NCBI GenBank assembly: GCA_030653035.1
Contig: JAUSAB010000062.1
Location: 1 to 48,583 of the forward strand
Direction of reading: 5' to 3'
DNA length: 48,583 nucleotides
Source: Desulfocapsaceae bacterium
Lineage (GTDB): Bacteria > Desulfobacterota > Desulfobulbia > Desulfobulbales > Desulfocapsaceae
Of this stretch, positions 4,776-40,190 are shown piece by piece; positions within the stretch are counted from its first letter, which is position 1; each line of letters begins with the position of its first letter. Both the position numbers and the translations under genes were made by a program. The notes under the pieces were generated by a model that saw only the letters and a list, made by a program, of their open reading frames with translations, was not told where the DNA came from and did no database searches.

Positions 4776-6077
4776 TTATGCGTCAGCGTCCTCGGCTTCA
4801 ACCCGGTTGCGACCATTAGCCTTGGCTTGATAGAGGGCATGATCGACCCGATTGGTCAGGCTGATTTCAGTATCATCGCGTCGGAGGGCGGCGACACCAA
4901 AGCTGGCAGTGACTTCCCTCGGGACGGAAAAGGTTGTCTGCGCCACTCTGAGCCTCAACATCTCGGCCAATTGGATCCCTTGGTCGAGGGCACAGCCTGG
5001 GGCAATAACCATGAATTCCTCACCGCCCCAGCGGGCGAAAATATCCGTGGTGCGGACATTGGCATTGACCACCCGTGCCATATCGATCAACACGCTATCG
5101 CCTGTTTGATGGCCGTAGGCATCGTTGATCTCTTTGAATTTGTCGATGTCGAACATGATAATGGTCATCGACGATTGGTAGCGCCGGGCCCTGGAAATTT
5201 CGAGGGTCAGCAGCTTGGAGAATTCCAACCGGTTATAGATCCCGGTCAGGGCGTCGGTCGAGGCCTGCTTTTCCAGCAGGGCGTTGATGGTCTGTAGAGA
5301 TTCCTGGTATTTTTTTTGCTCGGTAATGTCATGGAAGGCAATGACTGTCCCCTCCAGCTTGCCGCCGGTAATCACTGGGCGGCAGGCGAGGGAGACCGGC
5401 ATCAACCGGCCGGACTTGCAGGCGAAGACACAATCGTCATTATTGTAGACCTGCCCGTTGTGAATGGCGGAGACCAGTTGCGTTCCCTCCGGGGGGAAGA
5501 AGGTGCCATCGGCAAATTGCTTATGGATAGTGTTAAATACCATTTTTCCAGCCATTTCCTGAAAACTGTAGCCGAGCAGGCGCTCGGCCTCGGGATTGGC
5601 AAAAATGAGACGTCCCTCCGTATCGACGAGGTAAACCCCTTCACCAAGGACGTCGGTAATGGTTTTCAGGCGTTGTTCAAGAGACTCCTTGTCCCGTAGC
5701 GATGCAATCATGTGATTGAATGAGAGGGAGAACTCCCCTAAAAAGTCGACCTGTTGGCTGAGGTCACCGTCAGCAACCTGATTGGTTTGCCAGGTAAGAT
5801 GGCGGAGGCTGGCCTGCAAGGCCTTGAGCGGCATGGCGAAGATGTTGGAGCGGGAAACTTCGGTCTTAAGCTCACCATTGGCCAGGGCCTCGGCAAAACG
5901 GTAGGTCTCATTCATCTGGGCGAAGATCTGTTCCAGATTTTTGCAGAAATTCCGGCAGGTGTCATCGGCTGCGTCCTTGCACTCTACGGGGAAAACCAGA
6001 CCGTTTTTGCCGAGTCCCCGCTCCATGGCCAGTGCCAGGCAACTGCCGATTGCTTTCAGGGCTTGCGTTGAATCCAT
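4776..6077 (-). CDS. PAS-GGDEF diguanylate cyclase
   Basis: This 433-residue cytoplasmic protein should make cyclic di-GMP from two GTP. A HAMP-like helical segment lies around residues 62-125 (containing VADGDLSQQV), a PAS domain around 133-255, and a GGDEF domain around 270-430. The active-site loop reads WGGEEF near residue 350. It is preceded by RTTD, the spacing expected of an inhibitory I-site, so product feedback is likely. No signal peptide or membrane segment is visible. The ATG lies one base after the stop of the V4R gene with AAGG upstream, so the two are almost certainly translated from one message. The natural inference is that the V4R protein senses something and this enzyme reports it as c-di-GMP. 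Enzyme class is secure; the ligand is unknown. Confidence 0.93.
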   Translation of the reverse strand: MDSTQALKAIGSCLALAMERGLGKNGLVFPVECKDAADDTCRNFCKNLEQIFAQMNETYRFAEALANGELKTEVSRSNIFAMPLKALQASLRHLTWQTNQVADGDLSQQVDFLGEFSLSFNHMIASLRDKESLEQRLKTITDVLGEGVYLVDTEGRLIFANPEAERLLGYSFQEMAGKMVFNTIHKQFADGTFFPPEGTQLVSAIHNGQVYNNDDCVFACKSGRLMPVSLACRPVITGGKLEGTVIAFHDITEQKKYQESLQTINALLEKQASTDALTGIYNRLEFSKLLTLEISRARRYQSSMTIIMFDIDKFKEINDAYGHQTGDSVLIDMARVVNANVRTTDIFARWGGEEFMVIAPGCALDQGIQLAEMLRLRVAQTTFSVPREVTASFGVAALRRDDTEISLTNRVDHALYQAKANGRNRVEAEDADA

Positions 6078-6078
6078 A

Positions 6079-6597
6079 TCAGACCTTTATGGGTTTTACT
6101 TCAAAGCGGCAGGTTCGATCGCCGGTGGCCCAGCAGTCAACCTCCTTGGCGGTGAAGTCTTTGCCGGTGTATTCCTTGAAAATGCCGGCGATGAAGCCTT
6201 CATCGTAGTCGCATACTGTTTCACCAAAGATCGGCAGCCCGGAGCAGTCAAGGTCTTCGGAGACCGTCAACACGAAATGCAGATTTTCCAAATCGGCTTG
6301 CTCCACCCGCAGCACCCCGACCTTGAAATCGATGAGCTTGGTCTTCAGATCGGCGACAAATTCGTCAAAGGGCAGGGCGGGATTGAGCACATTGCGGCAA
6401 AATTCACGACCCGCCAGGAGACCGGCCTTGACAAACAGCTCGCAGGTCTTTTCCCGGCCCAGTTCTTTGGAAAAGATATCCTTGAAGGTAAATTGCATGA
6501 GCCGATATACTGTGACCGAGGTCTCGCTCCCCAGGTTCGGGCGGCCCTCTGCCAGGTCGCCCAGATCCTTCCAGGAAAAATCATACGTATTTTTCAT
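6079..6597 (-). CDS. V4R (4-vinyl reductase) domain sensory protein
   Basis: This 172-residue single-domain protein resembles the V4R family, small ligand-binding modules related to heme-NO-binding and XylR/DmpR N-terminal domains. The C-terminal half shows the usual features: GETVCDYDEGFIAG, then KEVDCWATGDRTCRF. The conserved cysteines there could bind metal or heme. The N-terminal half is helical (GSETSVTVYRLMQ; KELGREKTCELF). There is no catalytic domain, so it is probably a stand-alone sensor acting on the diguanylate cyclase that begins one base after its stop codon. The family assignment comes from motif recall and length; the ligand (hydrocarbon, NO, heme or other) is open. Confidence 0.75.
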   Translation of the reverse strand: MKNTYDFSWKDLGDLAEGRPNLGSETSVTVYRLMQFTFKDIFSKELGREKTCELFVKAGLLAGREFCRNVLNPALPFDEFVADLKTKLIDFKVGVLRVEQADLENLHFVLTVSEDLDCSGLPIFGETVCDYDEGFIAGIFKEYTGKDFTAKEVDCWATGDRTCRFEVKPIKV

Positions 6598-6618
6598 TTA
6601 TTCTCTCCCTTTTTTGAG

Positions 6619-6742
6619 CCTGTTGCAAAAGTATAATTCGTGGTTCGACAGGCTCACCACGAACGGGAAAAGGCTAATAAATCCAATAATGATACCGTTC
6701 ACCCTGAGCTTGTCGAAGGGTATTACCGGAGTTTTACAACAG
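6619..6742. repeat. REP/BIME-like inverted repeat pair
   Basis: Two copies of a widespread bacterial intergenic repeat face each other. The left copy contains GGTTCGACAGGCTCACCACG (6642-6661) and the right copy contains CACCCTGAGCTTGTCGAAGG (6700-6719). Outside them, CTGTTGCAAAAG (6620-6631) and GTTTTACAACAG (6731-6742) form an outer inverted repeat. The element lies between the end of the CHASE4 protein gene and the start of the V4R gene. It may fold in the transcript and separate expression of the two transcription units. Confidence 0.75.
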
Positions 6743-6748
6743 ACTCTT

Positions 6749-9505
6749 TTATTGAAATAATTCCGGTTTACACACGCCATACCCTTGGGCATAATCAACT
6801 CCGATTTCTTTGAGGATGTTGATGATGTCGTCATTCTCGGCAAATTCAGCAATATTTTGTAGACCCATCACATGGCCCACATGATTGATCGATTCGACCA
6901 TAGCGCGGTCGATTTTGTTATTAACGATGGCTTTGACAAATAGGCCATCAATCTTTAGAAAATCCACATCAAGATTTTTTAGATAGGCAAAAGAAGATAA
7001 ACCACTGCCGAAATCATCCAGTGAGAAACGGCAGCCCATTTGGCGCAATACGCGCATAAACCGCCGGGCCTTGTCGAGATTGGCAATGACAGCTGTCTCA
7101 GTGATTTCAAAACATAAACGTTGAGGGGCAACATTAGATGTCTTGATCAGGTCAATAACGTATTCGAGAAACCCTTCACTTGACAGGGTTTGGCCCGAGA
7201 GGTTGATAGCACATATGTCCGTGAAATTTGCACCTTTGCGCGCTATGATCGAGAGCGCTTCCCGTATTACCCAGCGATCGATAAGCGGCATCAGGTGGTA
7301 GCGTTCGGCGACCGGCAGAAAGTGGCCTGGTGGATAAAGTGTGCCATTATCGTCCTGCATGCGGACTAGCAGCTCGCAATGTTGCTCAGCCCCAACTTTC
7401 AAGGTTTCCATATGCTGGACGTAGAGGACCAACTGTTTTTTTTCCAGTCCTTGGTGGATCCGTGATAGCCAATCGAGCTGGCAGTTATGCCGTTTGAAGT
7501 CTTTATCATCCGGGCGGAACACATGAATACGGTTGCCGCCTTCCTCCTTGGCGGCATAACAGGCTGAATCTACTGTGCTGAGCAATTCACTCAGGGTGCG
7601 GCTGTAATAAGGTGTGATTTCGGTCAAGCCAATACTGGCGCCAATCTTGAACACCTTGTCGTCGTAGGTGAAGCGGTATCCCTGTACCACTTGCAATAAG
7701 CCCATGATGACCTTGTATCCTTTGTCCAGGTCGCATCCGGTCAACAACACGGCAAACTCGTCCCCTCCCAAACGTGCCAATGTGTCTGAGCCTCGCATCT
7801 TGTCTTTCAACTGGGACGCAATCTGCCGCAGCAGCATATCTCCTGCCATATGACCACAAGTGTCATTGACCACTTTGAACTGATCGAGATCAATATAGGC
7901 GAGACAGTGTGTAGGTTTTTCTGTGGAGATATCTTCAATGGCGTTTTGGGCAATGCGATCAAACTCATAACGGTTGATCAGGCCGGTCAGGGCATCATGC
8001 CGTGCCTGAAAAATGAGCTGTTTGGACAGAGACCGTATGGCGGTGACATCATGCAGCACAGTGACCGCACCAAAATAGCTGCCACTCGGGTCTCGAAGTG
8101 ATGCCGTCGATTTGCGTATCACAAAATCTTGGCCATCGGTGCGATTAAGTACTGCCTCGTCAAAATCGTTTACCGGATCAATCAGCCAGGAGCTGTCAAT
8201 TGGCGCGGATTTGTCCTCCGATATAAGAGAGAACAATGATTGTAGCGTCTTACCCTTGGCTTCACAAAGATCAACGCCGGTCAGATATTCTGCTGCCTTG
8301 TTCATGTACGTGATACGTCTGTCGGCATCACTGGTTATTACTGCGTCGGCGATTGCTGCCAGCGTAGCCTGGGCACGCTCTTTTTCGAAGTGCAGTGCGT
8401 ATTGTGCTTGTTCGAGGCGTTCCAGCATCCCATTGATACCGTGGGCGAGACTGGAAAGCTCATCATTGCCGCTGAGCTCCTGCAGGCGCGCCGGTGCGGG
8501 AGAGTCGCCGATACATTTTACATTCTCACTCAACCGTGTCAAACGAGATAATACCAGTTTATGTAACAGCCAACTGAAGACAACCAGCAATAATGTGATC
8601 AGCACCATTGACCACAATAAAAAATGCAGGCCGAATTTACCTTGCTCAAAAATTCTCCGATCGCCCACTGTCCGTACGATGAGTTGGTCGGAACCGCCAA
8701 TGTTCTCCATCAAGGCGTAACCAGCCACTTCCTGATCCTGCAAAGGTGTTACGGCCATTCCGCCCTGGTTCCGTATCTGGGTCACAGCGGCAATCCGATC
8801 CGCCGACAAGTCCTGACTGGCCAACGTTTCGATGGTGATATGGGCGTCAAGAATCTTTTCAATGTGCTGCATCAATGTTTGATTGATACAACGTGCCATA
8901 ATCAATCTGCCGTTGGCTGATCCCTGACCATTGCTGGGCAGGACATCGAAAGCAGAAATAAAAAAGATGCCTTCCGCTGTCCAGAATAATCCGGAAACAT
9001 GACCATCGCCTGAGGTTGATCCCAGAAGGGCGCCTCCTTTGGCTGCTGCCTGCTTAATCATCTTGGGAATAGGCCAGGGTTGCCCGCTCCCGGCATCAAA
9101 ACCATTTTCGAACAAGACATCCCCTTCGAGATTAACAAGGATGATGGCATTGATATTCAGGTGCCGAAAGGTGTCGGGGCCGTAGTTACTTTTGATATAG
9201 GCTGGATCTGGGGTTATTATGTGTTGATAGGTGTCGTCCCACTGGGCCCAGTCGCTGACGATGCCATCAAGTTGTTGAGACTGCTCCTGCAAAAGGCTTA
9301 CCGCGCTGCCGATCTGAATCAGGGTCTTGTCCAGCTCAAGTTGAGAATACCCCTTGAACAGTAATGTCCGTGCGGCTGTAAATTGCGTGGCAAATAACGC
9401 CAGCATGCCCATGGCGACCATGATGACCAGTTTGGTTCGTAAGCTCGTAAAGTGTTTTCCTGTCATTTGGTCTTTAACAAAGAGGGGATAGAATTTATTT
9501 TTCAT
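6749..9505 (-). CDS. CHASE4-HAMP-PAS-GGDEF-EAL membrane c-di-GMP enzyme
   Basis: This 918-residue inner-membrane protein has a transmembrane segment at about 25-45 and a periplasmic CHASE4-type sensor at about 65-230 with its hallmark WAQWDDTYQ. A second transmembrane segment lies near 295-315, then HAMP, PAS (385-495), GGDEF (500-665) and EAL (675-915). The cyclase site is LGGDEF near 582, with RGSD upstream as a possible I-site. The EAL domain keeps ELLVR, EITET, DDFGSG and FLKIDG, so both c-di-GMP synthesis and breakdown are possible. Its ATG overlaps the last codons of the PhnD-sensor kinase gene by 11 bases, implying translational coupling. Which activity dominates cannot be told from sequence. 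Confidence 0.93.
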   Translation of the reverse strand: MKNKFYPLFVKDQMTGKHFTSLRTKLVIMVAMGMLALFATQFTAARTLLFKGYSQLELDKTLIQIGSAVSLLQEQSQQLDGIVSDWAQWDDTYQHIITPDPAYIKSNYGPDTFRHLNINAIILVNLEGDVLFENGFDAGSGQPWPIPKMIKQAAAKGGALLGSTSGDGHVSGLFWTAEGIFFISAFDVLPSNGQGSANGRLIMARCINQTLMQHIEKILDAHITIETLASQDLSADRIAAVTQIRNQGGMAVTPLQDQEVAGYALMENIGGSDQLIVRTVGDRRIFEQGKFGLHFLLWSMVLITLLLVVFSWLLHKLVLSRLTRLSENVKCIGDSPAPARLQELSGNDELSSLAHGINGMLERLEQAQYALHFEKERAQATLAAIADAVITSDADRRITYMNKAAEYLTGVDLCEAKGKTLQSLFSLISEDKSAPIDSSWLIDPVNDFDEAVLNRTDGQDFVIRKSTASLRDPSGSYFGAVTVLHDVTAIRSLSKQLIFQARHDALTGLINRYEFDRIAQNAIEDISTEKPTHCLAYIDLDQFKVVNDTCGHMAGDMLLRQIASQLKDKMRGSDTLARLGGDEFAVLLTGCDLDKGYKVIMGLLQVVQGYRFTYDDKVFKIGASIGLTEITPYYSRTLSELLSTVDSACYAAKEEGGNRIHVFRPDDKDFKRHNCQLDWLSRIHQGLEKKQLVLYVQHMETLKVGAEQHCELLVRMQDDNGTLYPPGHFLPVAERYHLMPLIDRWVIREALSIIARKGANFTDICAINLSGQTLSSEGFLEYVIDLIKTSNVAPQRLCFEITETAVIANLDKARRFMRVLRQMGCRFSLDDFGSGLSSFAYLKNLDVDFLKIDGLFVKAIVNNKIDRAMVESINHVGHVMGLQNIAEFAENDDIINILKEIGVDYAQGYGVCKPELFQ

Positions 9506-12500
9506 CCAGCGCCTTGCGTACGGCCATGGCCAGTTCCCGTAGCGAAATCGGCTTTGTCAGGTAGGCCCGGATGCCGAGGGCGTGGGCTTGTTCCTTTTTG
9601 ATCAGTTCGCTGTATCCGGTGCAGAGAATGACCGGAATGTCAGGGCGGATGGCCTGAACCTTGGTCGTCAGTTCAATGCCGTTCAGGTGCGGCATGGTTA
9701 TGTCGGTGATGAGCAGGTCAAAGGCCCCCGGGGTATGGGTAATACGGGCTAGGGCCTCCTCGCTGTCGTTGATCACAGTTATTTGGTAACCCAGATTGGT
9801 GAGAATGGACTCGAGCAGGGAGGTGATTTCTGTTTCATCATCCACCACCAGCAGTCGTTCGTGGCCAGTGGGGATAGGCTTAGTTGCGACCGCTTCAGCA
9901 AGTGAAGGCGCTTCGGCTATCCTCGGCAGATAGACATGAAAGCGCGTCCCCTTGCCCGGCTCGCTGTATACCGTAATATGCCCCTGATAACTTTTGACAA
10001 TGCCGTGGACCATGGAAAGACCAAGGCCGGTGCCTTCTCCCTTTCTTTTGGTGGTAAAGTAGGGCTCAAAGATATGGGCCAGTGTTTTTTGTTCCATGCC
10101 ACTGCCGGTGTCACTGACCTCGATCAACACATAGTCTCCTGGGGCGAGTTCGACGCGGGGGCCCTTGCTGTCATCCTCAATGGTAACTTTTGTAAGGCTC
10201 ACCCCCAGTATTCCGCCGCTCTCGCGCATAGCATGGTAGGCATTGGTGCAGAGATTCATGATGACCTGGTGAAGTTGGGTCGGATCAGCCAGGATAGCAC
10301 CGCATTCCGGGGAAATCATCTTGCGGATTTCAATGGTGGAGGGCAGTGAGGCCCGGATCAGTTTGAGCGCCTCCTTCACCACCAGATGCGGTTGAAACGG
10401 TTTCCTCTCCCGCGGGTCCTGACGGCTGAAGGCGAGAATCTGCTGAATCAGATCCTTGGCCCGTCCGGCAGCTTTGGTGATTTGCAGTACATCTCTTGTC
10501 AGAGGATCGTCCGGAGAGAGTTTGGTTAAGAGCAGTTCGGAATAGCCGAGAATGGGGACCAGCATGTTGTTGAAGTCATGGGCAATGCCTCCGGCCAGGG
10601 TACCGATGGCCTCCATTTTCTGGGCCTGCCGGAGTTGTTTTTCAAGCTCAACCCTCCCTGTGATATCCTGAACAATACCCACCATTCTGGACGGTTTGTC
10701 ATTGGCCGCGTAAACGACCTCTCCCTGCGTATGAACATGGCGCACTGTTCCGTCGGGAAGGAGAAGGCGATGCTCCATGTTGTAGACGCTTTGCTTTTCA
10801 AGGGCATCAGAAATAGCGCGATTTACCAGATCCCGGTCAGCAGGGTGGATCACCGAGATGAACGATTCGAAGAAGGGAGAGTTTTTTTCCGGTTCAAAAC
10901 CGTAAATACGAGTTGCTTCGGCCGACCACCACATCAGGTTTTCCGGAATCAGCCAATCCCAGTTCCCCAAATGCGCGATTCGTTGCGCCTTGGCCAGAGA
11001 GGATTCGCTCTTTCTGAGTTCGGCCGTGCGCTCTTCCACAAATTGTTCCAAGTGCAGGCTGTATTGATTTAATTCCGCCTCGGCCTTCTTGCGGTCCTCA
11101 ATATTGTGTACTACCGACAGCAATCGATTCTGTCCACCGATGTTTGCCTGTTTGAGGTTAACCTCAACCCAGAAGAGGTCGTTATTTTTCCGTTTGGCAA
11201 GCCATTCGAAGGTCTGTGGTCCTTCGGCCAGAGTTCTTGCAATCCATTGTGCGATATCCTGGCTTGTAAAAGGCGGTGTGCCGGCACTGAAATGATCCAT
11301 GGACAAGGAGAGAACCTCATCCCGGGAATAGCCATACATCTCGCACATGGCCTTGTTCACATCGAGAATGGCCCCGGAGACCAAATCATGAACGAAAAAA
11401 GCATCATTGGCGGAGTGAAAAATTTCTCGATAGTTCCGTTCCGATTCCTGCACAGCCTTTTGCGCCGATTTTATGGTGTCGAGCTGTTTTCCGAGCTCTG
11501 CTTGGGCAAAAACAAGTTTCCGGTTGAGTTGGACGGTATGGCTTGTGAAAAAAAGCAGGAGAGCCAAGAGAACGGAGATAATGAGAAGCCAAATCCAATA
11601 TTGGATGACAAAATCGACAAGGTGAATCTTGCCGAAATGATGCGCATAGGGGCCAAGCGCTAATTCCTGAAAGAGTTGGTGCACCGGTTGGTAACTAAGG
11701 GGCACGGTCCAGCCGCCGATATGTGGGATTTGGGCTGCCTGGCTTTGTGGGGGCATGCGCAGCAGGGCAACGGCAACATCTTCGGAGAGTTTCTCCGCTG
11801 TATGTTGGAGTTTGGCAAAGGGCCATTCCGGATAGAGGCGGGTACTATGCAGATATTCAAAATTATCAGTGTGTTGGGGGTTGAGTATTTTAATGGAGGC
11901 AAGATTTATCGATCCCTCTTCAGCCATCTTCTCCAGGGTATCCGTCCTCACCGTGCCGGCATCCGCTTCTCCGCTGAGCACTGCTAAAACCACAGCATCA
12001 TGGGTGCCGACGAATTTGAGCGTTTTAAAATCACGCCTGGGGTTTATACCTTGGGCCTGGAACTCGCGCAAGGCCATGAGCCAACCACCAAAAGATTCCT
12101 GATCAACGGCGGAAAAGGACTTGCCGTTTAAATCGTGCAAGCCGTTAATATCCTTATTGTCCGATCGGGTGAAGATTACGCCGCCGAATTGGCTCTTGGG
12201 AACATGGTTGAACAGATTTTTCATTGTGGCGATGCGGCTGACACCGAACTTGTACTCCAAATCGACATAGTAGGCGCTGTTGGCGATTATGAAATCGATG
12301 GTGCGATCTTGTACTGCTTGGTGTACCTGGGTAAAATTAAGGGGGACAATCTCAAAGGAGTGGGTAGGGATCGCGCTGCTCAGATACTCTGCGGTAGGTG
12401 TCCATATTTGCACCGCATGTCCTTCTCCCCTTTTAGCCAGTACCCCGATTTTGACCGTGGAAAGTTCTGATGCAACTGCGGACAAGGGCGAGAAAACTAC

Positions 12501-12569
12501 ACCAAAGAAAAAGAGCGCCAAGAGAAAAAAACGGCAAATGAATGAGCCAGTCACAGATGTACTCTTCAA
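9495..12569 (-). CDS. Hybrid histidine kinase with PhnD-like periplasmic sensor
   Basis: The 1024-residue protein begins with a signal-anchor (about 10-33) and a periplasmic domain (about 37-310) like PhnD/TtrS-type binding proteins ([24 protein letters not shown]). A transmembrane helix near 320-345 and two PAS domains (about 380-490 and 530-640) follow. The kinase core has its phospho-acceptor in [10 protein letters not shown], the N box in [11 protein letters not shown] and G boxes DTGSGM and [11 protein letters not shown]-terminal receiver (about 905-1020) has VVDDE, the phospho-acceptor in LITDITMP, and the Lys in LTKP. It likely senses a small anion or phosphonate-like solute and relays phosphate internally. 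Its start overlaps the preceding kinase gene by 4 bases (ATGA). No partner DNA-binding regulator is visible nearby. Confidence 0.93.
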
Positions 12570-15376
12570 GATAATTCCCTTTTTGTGTCCAGCGCCTTGC
12601 GTACGGCCAGGGCCAGTTCGTGGACTGAAACGGGTTTCATCAGGTAGGCCCGGATGCCGAGGGCGCGGGCCTGTTCTTTGTTGATCAGCTCGCTGAAGCC
12701 GGTGCAGAGGATGATCGGCAGCTCTGGGCGGATGGCCAGGACCCTGGCCGTGAGCTCAAGGCCGGTCAAGTGCGGCATGGTCATGTCGGTGATGAGCAGG
12801 TCAAAGGTAGTGGGGGAATCGGCAATCAGGGCCAATGCCTTCTCGCTGTTATTGACAACAGTGACCTGGTAGCCGAGGTTGGCGAGGATGGCCTCAAGCA
12901 TGGTGGTGATCATGTTTTCATCATCCACCACCAGCAGCCGTTCGTTACCAGTGGGCAGGGGGGATGCGGGTGCCGACTCGCTCACGGTAGACGTCTCGGC
13001 TATCAGCGGCAGATAGACATGGAAACATGTGCCCTTGCCCGGCTCACTGTAGACTGTGATCTGCCCCTGATAGCCTTTGACAATGCCGTGGACCACTGAC
13101 AGGCCCAGACCGGTGCCTTGTCCCTTGGCCTTGGTGGTGAAATAGGGCTCGAAAATCCGTTCCAGGGTCGCGTGATCCATGCCGCAGCCGGTATCGCTGA
13201 CCTCAAGCTGGACATAATTGCCGGGGAGAATCTCAGAGCTTACAACCTTGCTGTCTTTCTCCTCGATGGCAGCCTTAAAAAGGCGGACGCCGAGTATCCC
13301 GCCGCTCTCCCGCATGGCTTGGTAGGCATTGGTACAGAGGTTCATGACGATCTGGTGGAGCTGGGTCGGATCGGCGAGAATGGTTCCGCAGTCGGTGGCG
13401 ATCTCTTCGCAGATCTCGATGGTGGTAGGCAGGGAGGCCCGCAGGAGTTTGAGCGCCTCTTTTATTACCAGGTGTGGACGCAGCGGTCTTCGCTCCTGCG
13501 GGGCCTGCCGGCTGAAGGCCAGGATCTGCTGAACCAGATCCTTGGCCCGTAAGGCTGCCGTGATAATCTGTTGCAGATCTGAGGCCAGGGGTGTCTGGGG
13601 GGGAATCCTGGTCTGGGCCAGTTCGCCATAACCGAGGATGGGGGCCAGAATGTTGTTGAAATCGTGGGCAATGCCACCGGCCAGGGTGCCGATGGCCTCC
13701 ATCTTCTGTGATTGTCGGAGTCGCTCTTCCATCTTCATCAATTCACTGATATCTTTGGCAATATGGACAAAGATGGTGGCCCCTGTGGAATCAGTAACGG
13801 GAAAGGCGGCGGCGGCAAAGGTCTTGCCCAGGTTGGCGTGGCAGATAGTGGCCCGCTGGCTGGTCAGGGTCTGGAGGGCGAGAAGCTCCGGGCAGCCGGG
13901 GCAGGGTTCGCTGCCGCCGCGGAAGACTTCATAACAGTGTTTGCCGATGAGTGCGGCGGGCGCCATCTGGAAAAGCTTGCAAGCGGCCTTGTTTGCCCGG
14001 ATGATTCGCATATCCTGATCGTGGATGGTGATGATATCATCAATGGCGTCAAAGGTTTTTTCCCATTGCTCCTTGATGGCGAGGATCTCAAGTTCCATGA
14101 CCTTCTGCTTGAGAATCCCCCAGACCGTATTTATATAAAGGGCAAGCTGATTGGCATCTTCCTGATTGTAGGGTTCCTTTTTGTTGCCGACACCGATGAT
14201 GGCGACAACGTGGTCGCCGTCCAGGATTGGTACACTCAGATGGCGCAGCACGGGGAAATGGCCCTCCGGGTAGCCTTTGCGATCCGGGGTGTTCGGATAA
14301 TCATTGTGGATCACCGGTTGGCGGAGGCGGATACAATCGGCCAAGATTCCGGCATCTTTGAGCGGATAATGGATGAATTTTGCCGTCGAACATTCGTTTT
14401 TGACTTTTTCCGACCAGGTAAAAAGTTCAATGGTCTGCTGATCCTCATTCATGAAATGCAGAGAGCCCACGTCGCTACCGGTGAGCTGCACAGCATCGGC
14501 CAGGGCATGATCGGCCAGGGCCTCTCTGGAACTCCATGGTTGACGCGCCAAGGTGAGCAGGGCCGCCGCCCGTTCTTTATCGCGTCTGGCCTTTTCCTCT
14601 GCCGCCCGGCGCTCGGTGATGTCGGTGGCGATCTCCAATCGGACGAGGCGGCCGTTGGCCCAGGTGATGACCCGGTTCTGGATGTGAAGCCAGCGGCCGG
14701 TTGCAGTGTTCTGGAAATCCCAGGTGTAAACTTCTGCCGGATTTCCATCCGGGGTGATCAGATATCTGTTGGTGCAGAAGGGGCACGGCCCGGTCTGACC
14801 AACTTGCAGGGTCTGCCAGCAGATGGCGCCGGTGATATCTTTTCCCAGCATCTTCTGGACGTACTTGTTGACAAAGAGGACCTCGTAGCTCTCCATGTCG
14901 GCCACATAGACAAGGGCATCCAGGTTGTCGAGAATGGTTTTCAGCATGGTATGCGAGGTCAGCAACTGGTGATGGGTTGCCTGCTGTCGTTCCAGTTGCT
15001 GGTTGAGGGCGGTAAATTTATCGCTGGCGCTTTTTGACTGAGAAATGCGGAGAAAGATAAGGGGTGGTTCTTCCGGCTGCGCCTGGATCCGATAGCCGAA
15101 GCAGGTGTATTGACAGATCGTGCTGTTTACGTCGAGGCGGGAAAGAATTCCCGGCATCTGCTGCCGGTTTCTGATGCAGGTGGAGAGATAGTCAGCAATT
15201 ATCTGGGCCGTCTCGTGAAAGCATTCGGTAAAGCTTCGCCCTGCCATTTCCTGAGGAGGCAGTCCGAGTATGGCTGCGCCGGCAGGATTAGCAGCCACGA
15301 TTGCCCCTTCTCTGGTGAGAAGAAAACAGCCGTCATGCCACGGGCCACTCAGTTCTGTAAACAGCTTGGTCAGCAT
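12566..15376 (-). CDS. PAS/GAF hybrid histidine kinase with receiver
   Basis: This 936-residue soluble hybrid kinase has PAS at about 8-110, a second PAS at 145-270, GAF at 290-440, a third PAS at 450-560, HisKA around [14 protein letters not shown], HATPase_c ([26 protein letters not shown]) and a receiver (VVDDEN; LITDMTMP; LMKP). Two of the PAS domains carry paired cysteines, GPCPFC and EPCPGC, which may bind metal or act as redox switches. No membrane segment or signal peptide is seen, so it should respond to an intracellular cue. The start lies 3 bases after the stop of the small sensor gene upstream, and its end overlaps the next kinase gene. The kinase-receiver half is strongly similar to the two neighbouring kinases, which points to tandem duplication. 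Confidence 0.93.
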   Translation of the reverse strand: MLTKLFTELSGPWHDGCFLLTREGAIVAANPAGAAILGLPPQEMAGRSFTECFHETAQIIADYLSTCIRNRQQMPGILSRLDVNSTICQYTCFGYRIQAQPEEPPLIFLRISQSKSASDKFTALNQQLERQQATHHQLLTSHTMLKTILDNLDALVYVADMESYEVLFVNKYVQKMLGKDITGAICWQTLQVGQTGPCPFCTNRYLITPDGNPAEVYTWDFQNTATGRWLHIQNRVITWANGRLVRLEIATDITERRAAEEKARRDKERAAALLTLARQPWSSREALADHALADAVQLTGSDVGSLHFMNEDQQTIELFTWSEKVKNECSTAKFIHYPLKDAGILADCIRLRQPVIHNDYPNTPDRKGYPEGHFPVLRHLSVPILDGDHVVAIIGVGNKKEPYNQEDANQLALYINTVWGILKQKVMELEILAIKEQWEKTFDAIDDIITIHDQDMRIIRANKAACKLFQMAPAALIGKHCYEVFRGGSEPCPGCPELLALQTLTSQRATICHANLGKTFAAAAFPVTDSTGATIFVHIAKDISELMKMEERLRQSQKMEAIGTLAGGIAHDFNNILAPILGYGELAQTRIPPQTPLASDLQQIITAALRAKDLVQQILAFSRQAPQERRPLRPHLVIKEALKLLRASLPTTIEICEEIATDCGTILADPTQLHQIVMNLCTNAYQAMRESGGILGVRLFKAAIEEKDSKVVSSEILPGNYVQLEVSDTGCGMDHATLERIFEPYFTTKAKGQGTGLGLSVVHGIVKGYQGQITVYSEPGKGTCFHVYLPLIAETSTVSESAPASPLPTGNERLLVVDDENMITTMLEAILANLGYQVTVVNNSEKALALIADSPTTFDLLITDMTMPHLTGLELTARVLAIRPELPIILCTGFSELINKEQARALGIRAYLMKPVSVHELALAVRKALDTKRELS

Positions 15377-15379
15377 GGT

Positions 15380-15904
15380 TTAGTCCCCGTAATATTCCCA
15401 ACCTTGGGCTGCCTCGGCCTCAGGAGACTGTTCCAGATAGATGGTAACCCGGCACTGGCCGCATCTGCCGGCAAAGGTCTCTTCCAGGATTACCTTGGCA
15501 TAGCCCAGATTGGTGGCGGTGATGACCCCGAAGACATTGGAGGTCATCATGCACATGGATGGCCGTTCCAACACCGCATCTCCAAAGGGGCAGGAGGAGT
15601 TGGACAGGATGATTTTGTGGTGGTCCTGGGCCACGATGGAGAAATCACCGTGAATCCGTTGTTTCAGATCAACCAGAACCTGGGCGACCTGATCCCGGTT
15701 CAAGGTGGTGACCCCCAGTTCCCTGGTGTAGAGGCTGTTGATCCATTTACCCATATGCTGGCCGACCAGACTGATATAGCCGGCAGCTTCCTCATAGCCC
15801 ACAACTCTTTCGAGTGTGCCAGCCAGTTCCCGGATCAGGGTTCTGAGAAAAAGATCGCGGTTCAGGGGGATGTTGAGTTGTTGCACGGTTGTTGTCTCAT
15901 CCAT
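15380..15904 (-). CDS. Small Cys-containing sensory protein (methanogen output domain-like)
   Basis: The 174-residue protein has a helical N-terminal half and a C-terminal half with five cysteines: SNSSCPFGDAV, PSMCMMTSNVFG and GRCGQCRVTIYL. This pattern matches my memory of the methanogen output domain 1 (MetOD1) family, which resembles V4R domains. It has no enzymatic motif or membrane segment. The start is supported by AAGGAG upstream. It heads a tightly packed unit: the hybrid kinase gene starts 3 bases after its stop. It probably supplies a signal to, or receives one from, that kinase. The exact family and ligand are uncertain. Confidence 0.6.
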   Translation of the reverse strand: MDETTTVQQLNIPLNRDLFLRTLIRELAGTLERVVGYEEAAGYISLVGQHMGKWINSLYTRELGVTTLNRDQVAQVLVDLKQRIHGDFSIVAQDHHKIILSNSSCPFGDAVLERPSMCMMTSNVFGVITATNLGYAKVILEETFAGRCGQCRVTIYLEQSPEAEAAQGWEYYGD

Positions 15905-15990
15905 GGTCAGACTCCTTTCTGGGAAATCCAGATTCCTACGGTTCTGTCTTTACGGGTGCTGTATGACATTTTCCTTTGAAACTATTGCCT

Positions 15991-18261
15991 TTAAGGGAGT
16001 TTTTTCCTGGCATCCAGTGCCTCGCGCACCGTTATCGCCAGTTCGTGGATCGACACGGGCTTTGTCAGGTAAGACTGGATGCCGAGGGCGAGGGCCTGTT
16101 CTTTGTTGATCAATTCGCTGAAACCAGTGCAGAGAATGATCGGAATATCTGGGCGGATGGCCAGTACCTTAGCCGTGAGCTCAAGGCCGGTCAGATGCGG
16201 CATGGTCATGTCGGTGATGAGCAGGTCAAAGACTAAAGGGGTGTTGGTGAGCAGGGCCAGAGCCTCCAGACTATTGTTGATAACAATTGTCTGGTAACCA
16301 AGGTAAGTGAGGAGTGCCGTGAGCATGGTGGTGATCGCTTCTTCATCATCCACCACCAGCAGTCGCTCGCTACCGGTAGGCAAAGGGGATGTGAGTGCCG
16401 ACTCACTCAAGCTTGGTGCTTCGGCGATCAGAGGAAGATACACATGAAAACATGTGCCCTTGCCGGGCTCACTGTCAACAGTGATCTGCCCTTGATAACT
16501 TTTGACAATGCCGTGGACCATGGAAAGTCCAAGGCCGGTGCCTTCTCCTTTGTCCTTGGTGGTGAAATAGGGCTCAAAGATCCGTTCCAGGGTATTGCGT
16601 TCCATGCCATAGCCTGTGTCGCTGATCTCAAGCTGGATATACTTGCCAGGCGTAAGTTCGGAATTGCCAATCTTGTGGTCTCCTTCACCGAAACTTGTTT
16701 GAGAAAGGCGTACTTCCAGGATACCACCGCTTTCCCGCATGGCATGATAGGCATTGGTGCAGAGGTTCATGATGATCTGATGGAGCTGGGTCGGATCGGC
16801 GAGGAGAGTCCCGCAGTCGGTGGCTATCTCTTCACGGATCTCGATGGTGGCGGGCAGGGTGGCCCGCAACAGTTTGAGCGCCTCCTTGATCACCAGATGT
16901 GGCCGCAGGGGTTTTCGTTCCTGGGGAGCTTGACGGCTGAAGGCAAGGATCTGCTGGATGAGATCCTTGGCTCGCAAGCCCGCCCTGGTGATCTGGTGCA
17001 GATCCGAGATCAGGGGGTTGTCGGGGGTGATTTTGGTCAGGGCCAGTTCGCTATAACCGAGAATGGGGGTCAGGATGTTGTTAAAGTCGTGGGCAATGCC
17101 ACCGGCAAGCGTCCCGATGGCCTCCATCTTCTGGGCTTGCCTGAGCTGCTCCTCCAGCTTTTTCTGCGCAGTGATATCGCGGACACTTTCAATGCCGGCA
17201 ATAATATTGCCATCAGCGTCTTTCATCGGACTGGAGGTAACCTCCAGATGGATAAGCCCATGTTCGCCAGGGGCAGTAGTCTCGCGGCGATGCACTGCGC
17301 CGTCGGCAAAAGATTGTACGAGAAGGCAGCCGTCACATATTGTTGCCCGGTGTTGATAGGCATGGTAGCAGTATTCACCAGTGTGCACGCCCTGTTTGTC
17401 CATATGGACCTTGTTTTGATACAGCACCTTGAAGTCGGTGTCCTGAACGGTGATCCCGTCTGTCAGGGTCGCGAATAACGATTCAAGTTTGTTTTTTTCC
17501 TCAAAGAGCTTTCGGGTCTGAGCTTTACGTTTGCTTATGTCGCGTACAACCGAGACAATAAAGTTTTTCTCCCGGCGAGGAATAAAACTGGCATTTATCT
17601 CGACAGGAATGCGACTGCCATCCTTGCAAATCTGTTCAGCTTCAAACAGACGGCTTTTTTCACGGACCCGGTCTGCATAATTTTGCCAGCTGGGCATGTC
17701 CACAATATGGGGCGCGATGTCGATGATTCGAAGAACCAAGAGCTCGTTATTGCTGTATCCCAGACTGGAGCAGGCCTTGTCGTTGACGTAGATGATCGCA
17801 CTGGTGTCGGCATCGACAACGAAGATGGCGTCATTGCTCTGGTTGATAAGGGTTTGAAACAGGGAGAGCTCTTCTTGGGCAAGATGGCTCTCGGTGATGT
17901 CCATGAGCAGGGACTGTTTGGAGAGGGTGCCATCCTCATTACGGATCGGGGTGTTGATGACATCGTACCAGCGTCCATCTTTGGGGCTCTTTAATTGTCG
18001 GCGGAGGGTCTTTTGTTCGCGAAATAATCTATCGTTGTTGCAATAGGGGCAGATCTCTGTCCGACCGTGCAGGATTTTGTAGCAGTATTCACCGGTGGCG
18101 TCATAGCCGGTGCGTTCCCGCAGCTTGTCGTTCATGTACTGGATACGATGATCCTGCGAACAGATGTAGATGAAACCATCAAAGGCCAGGGTCAGGGCAT
18201 CAAAATCCGGCACCCGTGGTAAGGAGCCGTCTGTTGTTTGAGGGACAGTAGGAGGGGGCAT
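15991..18261 (-). CDS. Triple-PAS hybrid histidine kinase with receiver
   Basis: The 756-residue soluble kinase has PAS domains at about 25-130, 140-245 and 260-370, then HisKA ([10 protein letters not shown]), HATPase_c ([26 protein letters not shown]) and a receiver (VVDDEEAI; LITDMTMP; LTKP). PAS1 carries EICPYC and PAS3 carries TICDGC, each shortly after a CY motif, the same cysteine arrangement as in the neighbouring kinase. This suggests a shared redox- or metal-linked signal. A gap of 86 bases separates its stop region from the small sensor gene, so it may be the first gene of the long minus-strand unit or a separate transcript. No DNA-binding domain is present. Family certain; input and phosphotransfer partner unknown. 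Confidence 0.93.
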   Translation of the reverse strand: MPPPTVPQTTDGSLPRVPDFDALTLAFDGFIYICSQDHRIQYMNDKLRERTGYDATGEYCYKILHGRTEICPYCNNDRLFREQKTLRRQLKSPKDGRWYDVINTPIRNEDGTLSKQSLLMDITESHLAQEELSLFQTLINQSNDAIFVVDADTSAIIYVNDKACSSLGYSNNELLVLRIIDIAPHIVDMPSWQNYADRVREKSRLFEAEQICKDGSRIPVEINASFIPRREKNFIVSVVRDISKRKAQTRKLFEEKNKLESLFATLTDGITVQDTDFKVLYQNKVHMDKQGVHTGEYCYHAYQHRATICDGCLLVQSFADGAVHRRETTAPGEHGLIHLEVTSSPMKDADGNIIAGIESVRDITAQKKLEEQLRQAQKMEAIGTLAGGIAHDFNNILTPILGYSELALTKITPDNPLISDLHQITRAGLRAKDLIQQILAFSRQAPQERKPLRPHLVIKEALKLLRATLPATIEIREEIATDCGTLLADPTQLHQIIMNLCTNAYHAMRESGGILEVRLSQTSFGEGDHKIGNSELTPGKYIQLEISDTGYGMERNTLERIFEPYFTTKDKGEGTGLGLSMVHGIVKSYQGQITVDSEPGKGTCFHVYLPLIAEAPSLSESALTSPLPTGSERLLVVDDEEAITTMLTALLTYLGYQTIVINNSLEALALLTNTPLVFDLLITDMTMPHLTGLELTAKVLAIRPDIPIILCTGFSELINKEQALALGIQSYLTKPVSIHELAITVREALDARKKLP

Positions 18262-18486
18262 TCGTTGTCTCTGATCGATTTTAAAAAAAATCTGGGTAGA
18301 GTTTTCATAGCTGAGTTGCGCCCCGTAATGATCTTGCTGTCCGGGTAGTTTGTTCCTCTTCCTTTGCTCAAACAGACGTTATCTTTGCCGGTTTGCCGCG
18401 GTGAATTAGGTTTCTTTGCTATGCTCTTTGTCCTCTCCTCGTTGCGTGTTCACCTTTTCGCGCTTCTTCTTTGTTGGAAAATGGAA

Positions 18487-20031
18487 TTATACCTTGAAAT
18501 GACTTACCAGGTTTTTAAGCTCCTCGGCCAGTTGCGCTAATTGGGCGGCGTTCTCTCGTACCTGTTCTTCACCCCGGTGGATTTCGCTTACTGCCATGTT
18601 GATCCCGGCAATTTCCTGGGCAATTTCTCCTGAAACAGTTGCTGTCTGTGCCACCTGCTCGTTGGCGTCATGCACTCCCGTTGAGGCCTCGGCAATATTC
18701 CCCACTACCTCCTGCGTGAGTGCTGCCTGTTCGGCAATGGCCTCGGCAATGGTGGCGACAAGGGCACCGACTTCTTCAATGACTCCGGTGATCTTGTCAA
18801 TATCGGTTATGGCCCCGCCGGCAGATTGTTGGACCCCGGTAATCCTGCTTTTGATGTCCTCAGTGGCTGTGGCGGTCTGTTTTGCCAGTTCTTTGATTTC
18901 ATTGGCGACCACTGCAAATCCTTTGCCGGCCTCCCCAGCCCGTGCCGCTTCGATGGTGGCGTTCAGGGCAAGCAGGTTGGTTTGAGACGAGATCGCGGTG
19001 ATGGTTTCCGTTACCTGGCCAATTTGCTGCGCCGCCTGCCCGAACTGCTGCATCAGTACTGCAAGATTCTGGGCCTGAGTGCCGGCCTGCTCGCTGATTT
19101 TACGGGCCTTCTCCGAGTTGGCGGCAATCTTGCCGATGGTGTTGTTCATCTCCTGGGTGGATCCGGTGACGGTGGCGAGGTTGGTTGTCGCCTGTTCCAT
19201 GCATGCCGCCACCGAGTTGGTATTGGCGCTGGCCTCTTCTGCTGCGGCTGCCACCGTGCCCGTCTTGTCGGATACGACCTGGACATCTGTCGACATCTGT
19301 TGGGAAATGGCTGACAGCTCATCAGAAAACGTAGCGACAGTGGCGGCATTGTCTGCCAGCTGGGCGATAATCCCCCGGACTTTCTCGGCGAAGGTATTGA
19401 AACCGTTCGCCAGCGCCCCAACCTCGTCACCGGTTTCCACGGCGATTCTTCGAGTAAGGTCGCCCCCACCTTGAGAGATGTCCTGCATTAATTCTGCCGC
19501 ATGACTGATGGGTGTGACAATGGCGTTAGCCAGCAGGGTGATCAGTACAGTCATGAGAAAACCGCCAATGAGGATCGCGGCGCCGGTAGTCAGCATGTTA
19601 TTTTTGAGCTGGGCCGTAACACTTTCTTTGCTGTAGCTGAATTTAAGCCGTCCAATAATTGTTACACCTGCCGGATCCTTGATTTCTCTTTCCACGAGAA
19701 CAGATTGTGCAGATGTCGGTTTTTCCTGACTGTTTTTCGTCAGTGCGGTGCCCTTCCCGTCAAAAAAGACAACCCATTCCACATCCGCATCCTTGATGAC
19801 CTCTTTGACAAAGGCGTCAAGGGCCGGATAGTCGTAGTTGTTGATATAAGGCCCACTTATCTGTTCGGCCAGGGTTACCAGGGAAAGGGCCTTGGAGTCC
19901 AACGCACCCTGCATGAGGTGATTACTCCTGAACATCATGAATCCACCCAGGCTCAGAAGCAGGATTGCCGTCATCAAGACCGTTGCGATAATGATTTTAG
20001 GGCGTAGGCCCAATGAATGAAGATTTGGCAT
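18487..20031 (-). CDS. Methyl-accepting chemotaxis protein
   Basis: The 514-residue chemoreceptor has a transmembrane helix at about 14-34, a compact periplasmic domain to about 145, a second transmembrane helix near 150-172, HAMP, and a long coiled-coil signalling domain. The hairpin tip that contacts CheW and CheA is clear (SSQTNLLALNATIEAARAGE), followed by GKGFAVVANEIKELA. No CheR-tethering pentapeptide is seen at the end (LVSHFKV). AAGGA precedes the ATG. It sits between the kinase block and a PstS-like binding protein gene, separated from the latter by a terminator, so direct co-transcription is unlikely. The binding protein could still be a ligand-bound partner. Ligand unknown. Confidence 0.93.
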   Translation of the reverse strand: MPNLHSLGLRPKIIIATVLMTAILLLSLGGFMMFRSNHLMQGALDSKALSLVTLAEQISGPYINNYDYPALDAFVKEVIKDADVEWVVFFDGKGTALTKNSQEKPTSAQSVLVEREIKDPAGVTIIGRLKFSYSKESVTAQLKNNMLTTGAAILIGGFLMTVLITLLANAIVTPISHAAELMQDISQGGGDLTRRIAVETGDEVGALANGFNTFAEKVRGIIAQLADNAATVATFSDELSAISQQMSTDVQVVSDKTGTVAAAAEEASANTNSVAACMEQATTNLATVTGSTQEMNNTIGKIAANSEKARKISEQAGTQAQNLAVLMQQFGQAAQQIGQVTETITAISSQTNLLALNATIEAARAGEAGKGFAVVANEIKELAKQTATATEDIKSRITGVQQSAGGAITDIDKITGVIEEVGALVATIAEAIAEQAALTQEVVGNIAEASTGVHDANEQVAQTATVSGEIAQEIAGINMAVSEIHRGEEQVRENAAQLAQLAEELKNLVSHFKV

Positions 20032-37565: not shown

Positions 37566-38174
37566 ACCCACCACCCCAAAAGTGATCCTGCGGCACAGGA
37601 GGAGTGGAAAAAAAACTTCCGGAAACAGTGGCTGCCTTATTGACGCCTGAAAATGTAAAAGGGCGTCGAGTCCGCTTGATGTTCCAGGATGAAGCTCGAT
37701 TTGGTCGCCTGCTCCATTGCGTTCTTCTGTGTCGAACGGCTACGAGCGACAATTTGTGTATGTTTACGCTGCCGTCAGTCCAATCGAGGGCGAGATGGAT
37801 TGGATGATCAGTCAGAAAATGAACACGGAGCACATGTCGACCTTTCTCGGTCAGGTGAGCGCCGCCCATCCTGAAGACTTTATCGTCATGGTGCTTGACG
37901 GTGCAAGTTCACACAAGGCCAAAGATCTCCAGCGGCCCGAAAACATCAGACTTGTCGGGCTGCCGCCGTATTCTCCGGAACTCAACCCGCAAGAACATGT
38001 GTGGGATGAGCTCTGGGAGAAGGAGTTCCCCAACCGGGTGTTCAATGATCTCGACGCGGTAATCCGGCAGCTACAGAGTGGATTACCGAGATTGTGATCG
38101 GATCTGAGGCATTACGAAACCTTACAGCTTGGCCATGGATTATTAGTCTCAACTTGAAAGCGAATTGGAATTAA
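37566..38174 (+). pseudogene. Degraded IS630-family transposase
   Basis: Pieces of one IS630-type DDE transposase lie in three frames. THHPKSDPAAQEEWKKNF starts at 37566. A shift near 37618 leads to LPETVAALLTP and LMFQDEARFGRL (first catalytic Asp). A short deletion with another shift near 37710 leads to SNGYERQFVYVYAAVSP, MVLDGASSHKAKDL (second Asp) and LNPQEHVWDELWEKEF (catalytic Glu). A third shift near 38090 leads to TAWPWIISLNLKANWN and a stop at 38174. The N-terminal DNA-binding part is missing. The element cannot be active by itself. Confidence 0.85.
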
Positions 38175-38309: not shown

Positions 38310-40190
38310 TTACTGATATAATCCAGCAGATGGTTGAGAACCGTCAACCGTCTCACTTGGCAACTGTGATTGTGCCGCGCTTCGTCTGTTGCTGACGATG
38401 GCCGAACCTTTTTGCTTCTTGGCTGCCCGCTTGACTCCCGAGGCCAAAAAGGCCAGCTCGCCGTAGGAACTGACAGTACAATCTTCCGTGCTGACGATTC
38501 CGATGGACAATGACAACAAAGAGATACAACGGAGTTGCCCTTGTCGGTCCGTAGCCTGATAACAGCCATTCGTAAACTCCTGTTCGCCATGAAATTCCGG
38601 CAATAATAATTTCAGCCCATCAATAATCTGCTGACAGAGCGACAACGATGCATGTGGCCGAGTGATCACAATAAAATCATCGCCGCCGATATGGCCGACA
38701 AAACGAAACTGGTCATTATTGCCGCCCGGCTTCACCACATCGACAATAAGATTGGCGATCCCTTTGATGACCATGTCACCTTTTTCAAATCCGTAGTAAT
38801 CGTTGTAAGGTTTGAAATCATCGATATCCACATAGCACACATCAAAGGTCACTCTCTGCTCAATAAGACTGACCACCGTGCGCTGGATAAACTCATTGCC
38901 GGGCAGACCAGTGAGTGGACTCGCCCCTTTGGCCAACTGGATGCTTTTCTGGGTAATGGCATCGAGCAAGTTATGAATGGCAACCGAACCCTGATATTTG
39001 CCATTTTTGTTCACACAGAGATCATCATACAAAGAGACCCCGCGCCGCCCCTGAATCAGGCGGACCACCTCTTCCACCGGGGTCGTGGCCTCTACCAGCA
39101 GGAAATCTGGCTCGAGCACGTCCTTGAGCAGCCGGTGTTGGGAAAGGGCATAGCCAAAGCCATGCGGCCCGATCATGTGTTGTTCGAGAAAACGCATGCG
39201 GGGCAACATACCCATCACCCGCTCGTCCGCGACCACAGGTATCCCTTGCAGAGTGTTATTACTGTGAAAACGCTTAAACGCCGCCATCACCGAGTCTGCA
39301 GGGGCAAGAGGTTCCACATACTGGCAGATACCGCCGATCACACAGGAAGAAACCAGAGAATCGGCGCAGTCATACACATCATTCCGCTTGCCCGGCATAT
39401 CTATACATCTATCCGATAACCCTGGCCCTGGTCGCTCAAGATAATAGCCCTGAAATAGGTCAATACCAAAGCGGGAAACGATATCCAATTCCTCCTGACG
39501 CTCAATTCCCTCGGCAATAACCGTGATACCAAGTTTATGGCAAACTGTGGCCATGGCATCCACCAGATTATATTTAAAGGGAAAACGATCGAGCTCATCA
39601 ATAAAATGACGGTCAATCTTGACATAATCAGGCTGAACAATGGAGAGCATCTTCAGCCCGCCATAGCCTACGCCAAAATCGTCAATGGCAATCTTATAGC
39701 CACGTTTGCGGTAATGCTCTATCGACCGTTGAAAGAGATCATAGTTTTTGATGGCCTCTTGCTCGGTGATCTCCAGGACAATCCTGTCTTTAGGGATACC
39801 GCAATCCTCGGCCAGACGATCGGTAACCCCTCCCCGGTGATCTGGATGGACGAGGGTACCGGGGCAGATATTCACATAGAGGTAGGTGTTTTTTTGCAGG
39901 AAAGCCAATTCAGCCGCCCGGCAAAAGGCATTTTCCCGGCACTGCATATCAAGAGAAGCAATAATGCCTTCAGCTTGGGCTTTGGCAAACAGTTTGGAAA
40001 TATCAAAATGGGGAGCGACGTCGTCCCGAATCCTGGCCAGGGCCTCATAACCGTAGATCTCACCGTTCTGCCGGGAAAATATCGGCTGAAACCAGGAGGT
40101 AAGGCCGTTAGTATCCAGAAGATGGAACAACAGATCCCGCGATACCGTTGTCTGCACATTTTTCTCAAACATGGCTGATTCTAAAAACAT
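38310..40190 (-). CDS. EAL-CBS-GGDEF c-di-GMP phosphodiesterase
   Basis: The 626-residue cytoplasmic protein starts at an ATG with AGGAGG 8 bases upstream. An EAL domain (about 25-255) keeps every catalytic motif: YEALARI, YVNICPG, LEITEQE, AIDDFGVGYGG, VKIDRHF, AEGIE and FQGYYLERPGP. A CBS-like pair spans about 275-415. A GGDEF-type domain (about 425-600) has the variant GGDDF and no RxxD I-site, so it may bind GTP regulatorily rather than make c-di-GMP. Net activity is therefore likely c-di-GMP breakdown controlled by nucleotide binding in the CBS part. A small Cys-rich gene precedes it, separated by a MITE, and a truncated sensor gene follows. Confidence 0.92.
   Translation of the reverse strand: MFLESAMFEKNVQTTVSRDLLFHLLDTNGLTSWFQPIFSRQNGEIYGYEALARIRDDVAPHFDISKLFAKAQAEGIIASLDMQCRENAFCRAAELAFLQKNTYLYVNICPGTLVHPDHRGGVTDRLAEDCGIPKDRIVLEITEQEAIKNYDLFQRSIEHYRKRGYKIAIDDFGVGYGGLKMLSIVQPDYVKIDRHFIDELDRFPFKYNLVDAMATVCHKLGITVIAEGIERQEELDIVSRFGIDLFQGYYLERPGPGLSDRCIDMPGKRNDVYDCADSLVSSCVIGGICQYVEPLAPADSVMAAFKRFHSNNTLQGIPVVADERVMGMLPRMRFLEQHMIGPHGFGYALSQHRLLKDVLEPDFLLVEATTPVEEVVRLIQGRRGVSLYDDLCVNKNGKYQGSVAIHNLLDAITQKSIQLAKGASPLTGLPGNEFIQRTVVSLIEQRVTFDVCYVDIDDFKPYNDYYGFEKGDMVIKGIANLIVDVVKPGGNNDQFRFVGHIGGDDFIVITRPHASLSLCQQIIDGLKLLLPEFHGEQEFTNGCYQATDRQGQLRCISLLSLSIGIVSTEDCTVSSYGELAFLASGVKRAAKKQKGSAIVSNRRSAAQSQLPSETVDGSQPSAGLYQ

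Follow-up and report, generated by a model that had tools for sequence, protein, structure and literature searches.

What is the functional unit in an array of sensory genes packed so tightly that they could all belong to one signalling complex? The question is raised by a 48,583-nucleotide stretch from a Desulfocapsaceae bacterium (GenBank assembly GCA_030653035.1, contig JAUSAB010000062.1, positions 1 to 48,583; hereafter the window), in which four minus-strand open reading frames (ORFs) encode a small cysteine-containing protein, two hybrid kinases (HK1 and HK2) and a protein with CHASE4, GGDEF and EAL domains (the CHASE4 protein). All four are present as drawn in an initial annotation, with spacings of 3, -4 and -11 bases between the longest ORFs. 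That annotation took the four proteins for one signalling complex with cyclic di-GMP (c-di-GMP) output, combining a periplasmic PhnD-type cue with an intracellular one. Our comparison leads to a smaller unit, the gene pair formed by the small protein, a member of the MetOD1 family, and HK1, and we consider it likely, from sequence comparison and a structure model, that MetOD1 docks on the N-terminal PAS domain of HK1 (PAS1) and sets the activity of the kinase.

The gene set was compared in a sample of 242 genomes of the order, 23 of which contain MetOD1 (22 clear cases and one weak hit that was left out); the MetOD1 neighbourhoods were fetched and mapped, including matches missed by ORF picking. 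MetOD1 is present in 4 of 14 listed members of the genus, and of these four, all with MetOD1-HK1, the window alone has a PhnD-type kinase after HK1. One sibling, G079, has the order MetOD1-HK1-CHASE4-V4R-PAS-GGDEF, with no kinase separating HK1 from the CHASE4 gene and with an NMT1-type binding protein and a HAMP-PAS kinase located before MetOD1; in a second, G149, a binding protein and a kinase of these types sit between HK1 and CHASE4; and in a third, G096, locus mapping showed MetOD1-HK1 without a CHASE4, V4R or PAS-GGDEF gene beside the pair. Because the sibling loci differ in the kinase and CHASE4 content beside MetOD1-HK1, the four genes are not a unit, whereas the pair is kept together. 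A four-protein complex signalling through c-di-GMP is thus improbable in our judgement. It would account for the tight same-strand packing, for the CHASE4 gene directly following HK1 in G079 (with a 4-base overlap) or the kinase array in G149, for the GGDEF protein encoded downstream in the window and for a gammaproteobacterial locus (L125) where the MetOD1 partner is itself a GGDEF-EAL protein. Yet no other mapped locus has a PhnD-type kinase beside MetOD1-HK1, this type being common in the family independently of MetOD1, and the pair of G096 does without an adjacent CHASE4 gene. Of 59 other family genomes searched, 1 encodes a close relative of the CHASE4 protein, with four more at 27-40% identity (G149, which has one, is outside the 59), and the protein has its own CHASE4 sensor and no REC by Pfam. 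Only some members of the genus have the CHASE4 protein as a neighbour, and the case for c-di-GMP as the output rests on gene adjacency. In the G096 locus (L041, positions 10286-19448), the genes adjoining MetOD1-HK1 code for a further hybrid kinase (REC-PAS-GAF-PAS), a CheB protein and an MCP-like protein, a possible sign of a chemosensory setting.

Far beyond the genus, MetOD1 is accompanied by PAS1. Scanning genome contigs with a MetOD1 alignment yielded 430 relatives, the best 80 of which were kept as loci and, judged by their titles, span about ten phyla. PAS1 follows MetOD1 in all 80, detected by profile in 79 and in another frame (67 bits) in a Streptomyces locus (L131), and lies no more than about 0.25 kb from the MetOD1 stop in 79. 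With the single PAS1 sequence of the window as query, a score of 15 bits or more is reached by 75 of the 80 partners but by a single one of the 71 other signalling ORFs in these loci; the count was made after correcting one wrongly picked ORF and adding the partner from locus L087. The other five comprise L108, L110 and L131, which gave no single-sequence hit and yet are matched by the profile or in another frame, one partner below 15 bits, and L085, which was absent from that run and scored 19 bits separately. PAS1 is also found in every one of the 22 clear-MetOD1 genomes of the order (at least 100 bits in 21, a contig-edge fragment in one), adjacent to MetOD1 on one contig by coordinates in 21; in G106 what precedes it is just a C-terminal fragment of MetOD1. 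A phylum sample of 395 genomes contained 11 with MetOD1 matches, six of them clear (four already in the order sample) and five partial and weaker, and both new clear genomes have PAS1 beside MetOD1 (98 bits, and 48 bits at a locus end). Plasmid copies were found in 16 of 72,556 records, 8 of which were examined, and beyond its training set the profile matches 5 of 6 plasmid partners at 37-65 bits. Wide conservation of the pairing is supported by these counts, and so is that part of the initial annotation which coupled a soluble sensor gene with the gene of a hybrid kinase. As expected of an H-NOX-like pair acting in trans, MetOD1 and its partner stay adjacent, and the partner has a domain, PAS1, dedicated to the pairing.

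The part of the partner that lies behind PAS1 is exchangeable. It can be HisKA-HATPase-REC, HisKA-HATPase, a HisKA_2 kinase, GGDEF-EAL or a SpoIIE phosphatase, and no REC was reported in the partners of L086 (plain kinase), L125 (GGDEF-EAL) and L161 (SpoIIE). Divergence of the components was compared in 64 non-redundant pairs out of 78, with 999 permutations. MetOD1 and PAS1 distances correlate with a rho of 0.70, the highest value among the permutations being 0.21. In the 58 pairs with a kinase core the correlation is again 0.70 for MetOD1 and PAS1 and drops to 0.21 for MetOD1 and the core and to 0.19 for PAS1 and the core, with the caveat that local matches, a possible source of noise, supplied the core distances; mean identity is similar for PAS1 (0.35) and core (0.34). 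The divergence of PAS1 therefore tracks MetOD1, the product of another gene, and not the kinase core of its own protein, which is our strongest single argument for docking.

What MetOD1 does can be approached from its family, its predicted fold and its fusions. The "Cys-containing sensor" of the initial annotation belongs to PF18546 (MetOD1; 64.2 bits, cut-off 23.8), the sole Pfam family on this protein at E 0.001, V4R (PF02830) not being reported. It stands alone in the window, and neither REC nor another domain of the window was found in any of the 80 MetOD1 ORFs. Cys105, Cys118 and Cys151 are invariant across 19 aligned members. A structure model (mean predicted local distance difference test score 84) matches the sensor domains of DmpR, PoxR and MopR at Z 11.5-12.2 (156-163 residues aligned, root-mean-square deviation 3.6-4.3), with H-NOX structures also among the matches at Z of about 7.4 to 8.0; the fold assignment rests on this model because sequence searches of solved structures, with a single sequence or a profile, gave no credible match. 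In L057 and on a Methylobacter plasmid (L165), MetOD1 is the N-terminal part of a sigma-54 activator with HTH_8 (Pfam), the place held by the sensor of DmpR, which binds Zn via three Cys and one Glu (PMC7264223; here and below, published systems are described from excerpts of the sources cited). A MetOD1 match is also located near the N-terminus of a long ORF in L058, similar in length to that of L057. Galperin et al. likened MetOD1 to HNOB, V4R and ATC hydrolase, noted three conserved Cys, and placed the family among methanogen output domains, allowing an input role and suggesting enzymatic activity (PMC5847659). Taken together, the predicted fold, the conserved Cys and the DmpR-like place in sigma-54 fusions favour an input role in bacteria: MetOD1 is most probably a trans-acting input protein that works on its partner kinase in the manner of H-NOX. 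We infer that it responds through metal-bound or redox-active cysteines, or that a V4R-type pocket holds a small molecule. The open-access literature searched yielded no account of the bacterial MetOD1-PAS1 pair.

Could MetOD1 instead be an output or enzymatic domain acting downstream of the HK1 REC, as the published name and the resemblance to ATC hydrolase suggest? We think this unlikely. Methanogens do have REC-MetOD1 fusions, and three Cys are common to MetOD1 and ATC hydrolase (PMC5847659); in Methanosarcina, a kinase passed phosphate to a MetOD1 response regulator (PMC11784639), in keeping with an output role in archaea. The bacterial partners, however, share PAS1 and not REC, the distances link MetOD1 with PAS1 but not with the kinase core, and in the sigma-54 fusions MetOD1 occupies the place of the DmpR effector sensor. 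Harder still to credit is a pair conserved only through joint spread as neighbours, with no functional link between MetOD1 and PAS1. The patchy distribution within the order and the plasmid copies would suit such a history, but PAS1 stays adjacent to MetOD1 while the output behind it changes, and whole-gene co-transfer does not explain a pairing of this kind. Several observations do weigh against MetOD1 as an input protein docking on PAS1, beginning with the archaeal fusions and phosphotransfer just described. TRAPP Bet3 subunits match the MetOD1 model as well as DmpR does. The PAS1 profile gives at least 94.8 bits in 78 partners, 42 bits in one cut by a contig end and no more than 23 bits in the 71 controls, but it was built from the partners, so that these scores mostly restate the training set and are partly circular. 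In L087, a second MetOD1 match, which is partial, and about 0.5 kb come between MetOD1 and PAS1, and the gap has no listed forward ORF of at least 60 amino acids. The gene after MetOD1 in SC52, the one of the six plasmid loci that the profile does not match, is a hybrid kinase with a weak PAS1 score (8.6 bits), PAS1 was not found within 5 kb on either side of MetOD1 on a Priestia plasmid, and G053 and G087 (L197 and L198) have PAS1-HK1 without MetOD1 in the fetched stretch. Finally, the 80 loci are the closest of the 430, and pairing may be looser among more distant members. The tandem arrangement in L087 (Hydrocoleum, positions 5879-6632) consists of a full MetOD1 match followed by the partial one.

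For the MetOD1-HK1 sensor pair we propose the following course of events. MetOD1, a soluble sensor with a predicted DmpR/PoxR/MopR effector-binding fold and an invariant set of three Cys, would be translated just before HK1 and dock on PAS1 and its linker; the docked protein would set HK1 kinase activity, up or down; and HK1 would pass phosphate to its own REC and then, probably via a distant HPt, to a regulator. HK0, a third kinase encoded upstream of MetOD1, and HK2 would feed other inputs into similar modules. The cores of HK0, HK1 and HK2 are 71-79% identical and their RECs 70-73%, with different input parts, and because cores and RECs are so similar, this suggests that several inputs feed one type of kinase-receiver module with a shared downstream partner. 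HK1 and HK2 both carry a C-terminal REC in Pfam order, as annotated initially. Likewise, no DNA-binding or HPt domain is among the reported Pfam hits of the four proteins, but the argument drawn from their absence nearby is weakened by HPt domains elsewhere: eight PF01627 matches lie on other contigs of the genome, one of them in a small separate ORF of 107 amino acids. A ChpT-type phosphotransferase (PF10090) was sought as well, since the kinases resemble CckA; a single match below the cut-off, in a 677-amino-acid ORF, was not taken as ChpT. HK1 scores 269.6 and 262.5 bits against the CckA NCBIfam equivalog, the cut-off of which is 1000 bits.

Among known systems, the closest in layout is H-NOX with the hybrid kinase HqsK of Vibrio parahaemolyticus, where a small separate sensor gene shares an operon with a hybrid kinase and a phosphorelay leads to a separate HPt (PMC6759604). 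To the H-NOX protein itself only a likeness in fold was seen; MetOD1 is nearer to DmpR/PoxR in fold, has an invariant Cys set and is joined by partners that carry PAS1. With the V4R-type domains of DmpR, PoxR and MopR it shares the predicted fold over most of the protein (Z ~12), and with DmpR the conserved Cys and the position in sigma-54 activator fusions (PMC7264223). Unlike these sensors, MetOD1 is a separate protein, proposed to act on the product of another gene, without a credible sequence match to solved chains or a hit reported by the Pfam V4R model. The methanogen response regulators have a domain of the same Pfam family; there it is fused to REC, with stand-alone forms also listed (PMC5847659), whereas here it is bacterial and paired with a PAS1 transducer.

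HK2 does have the periplasmic PF12974 domain that had been read as a PhnD-type cue, but this domain scores higher against TtrS (154.6 bits) than against PhnD (78.6 bits), both below the NCBIfam cut-offs (261.1 bits for PhnD, TIGR03431), and phosphonate was dropped for a putative TtrS-like ligand for this reason. HK2 thus resembles the sulfur-oxyanion kinases TtrS and ThsS, the sensing domain of TtrS being PhnD-like (PMC5408782) and TtrS being the best NCBIfam match of the HK2 domain. It differs from them as a hybrid kinase with PAS domains and REC whose score as a whole protein stays below the TtrS equivalog cut-off (226.2 against 750 bits), and neither of its neighbour genes is a response regulator. 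A lineage-specific HK2 was also considered and dropped, as PhnD-type sensor kinases occur in 64 of 93 family genomes and at four places in the window's own genome; only the place of HK2 here is special. Its nearest relatives (59-65% identity) are in genus mates where no MetOD1 was found.

Downstream of the CHASE4 gene, a V4R protein and a PAS-GGDEF protein are proposed to form a second pair of the same design as MetOD1-PAS1. Relatives of the V4R protein occur at 51 places in 46 of the 242 order genomes and in 5 of 14 genus members; two of these five lack MetOD1, and in two genus mates without MetOD1 the V4R-PAS-GGDEF arrangement is present. At 23 of 25 V4R loci examined out of the 51 places, the same-strand protein behind V4R starts like the PAS-GGDEF protein of the window, a count made without a control set, and the remaining 2 are cut by contig ends. 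Outputs behind this N-terminus vary here too (GGDEF, kinases, SpoIIE). With 56.5 bits, a score below the cut-off, the V4R protein of the window shows likeness to the V4R part of MsvR.

On balance, we lean towards a broader reading in which MetOD1 and PAS1 form an unrecognised plug-in sensor cassette in about ten bacterial phyla, a Cys-bearing sensor acting in trans on a PAS domain joined to kinases, c-di-GMP enzymes or SpoIIE, with V4R and its HAMP-like partner domain as a second, parallel cassette. If so, the published name "output domain" would be the reverse of the role of MetOD1 in bacteria, and a family now filed under archaeal output domains would turn into a bacterial input protein of wide occurrence whose partner domain is known. 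Sensors could then be assigned to many kinases for which no input is known, the question of the ligand could be addressed with two small proteins, and the loci would provide a natural series in which a single sensor works in trans on outputs of several kinds. MetOD1 is present in the cultured Cereibacter sphaeroides 2.4.1 (DQL45_RS22680, with the kinase DQL45_RS22685) and Nostoc. Equating the Cereibacter MetOD1 gene with RSP_4193, which is listed in the RpoHI regulon (PMC3441632), would be a guess and carries no weight here. On a plasmid of the former (L160, positions 4900-11014), genes for MetOD1, a HisKA_2 kinase and a response regulator stand just after a phytochrome GGDEF-EAL gene, itself preceded by a haem oxygenase gene. 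On a Streptomyces plasmid (L161, positions 5992-8099), MetOD1 overlaps the gene of a PAS1-SpoIIE-type phosphatase by 4 bases.

The array is longer than four genes, with HK0 upstream and, downstream, the V4R and PAS-GGDEF genes separated by a 1-base gap. Its features are collected in the table.

Table. Features of the sensory array in the window.
Feature	Coordinates	Strand	Description
PAS-GGDEF protein	4776..6077	-	proposed V4R partner; N-terminal 135 amino acids = 5673-6077, HAMP-like end
V4R protein	6079..6597	-	172 amino acids; PF02830; proposed sensor of second pair
CHASE4 protein	6749..9505	-	918 amino acids as drawn; CHASE4-HAMP-PAS-GGDEF-EAL; likely start near 9466
HK2	9495..12569	-	1024 amino acids, TTG start; hybrid kinase, periplasmic PF12974 (TtrS/PhnD-like; Pfam Phosphonate-bd)-PAS-PAS-HisKA-HATPase-REC
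HK1	12566..15376	-	936 amino acids; hybrid kinase, Pfam PAS1-PAS-GAF-PAS-HisKA-HATPase-REC; proposed MetOD1 partner
PAS1 (N-terminal PAS domain of HK1)	14981..15361	-	common to MetOD1 partners across phyla; ends in FxxLN linker
MetOD1 protein, stand-alone	15380..15904	-	174 amino acids; PF18546; proposed trans-acting input subunit
HK0	15991..18261	-	PAS-PAS-PAS-HisKA-HATPase-REC; core and REC resemble those of HK1 and HK2

One of the three spacings needs revision. The two sibling loci with a CHASE4 gene (G079 and G149) have its start at a Met that corresponds to residue 14 of the ORF drawn in the window, so the window gene probably starts 39 bases later than drawn, which makes the -11 overlap doubtful and a gap of about +28 likely. 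The CHASE4 protein retains GGDEF and the preceding RxxD, and its EAL motif reads ELL. The 151-base spacer between the CHASE4 and V4R genes (6598-6748) contains a CCCTTCGACAAGCTCAGGG repeat that occurs in 7 exact copies genome-wide; since the siblings L046 and L047 have only about 15 bases there, the spacer appears to be an inserted repeat. Elsewhere in the window, inspection by eye suggests another protein, with an EAL part, a CBS-like middle and a GGDEF part (38310-40190), and an apparent remnant of an IS630-type transposase that comprises its C-terminal part (37717-38097).

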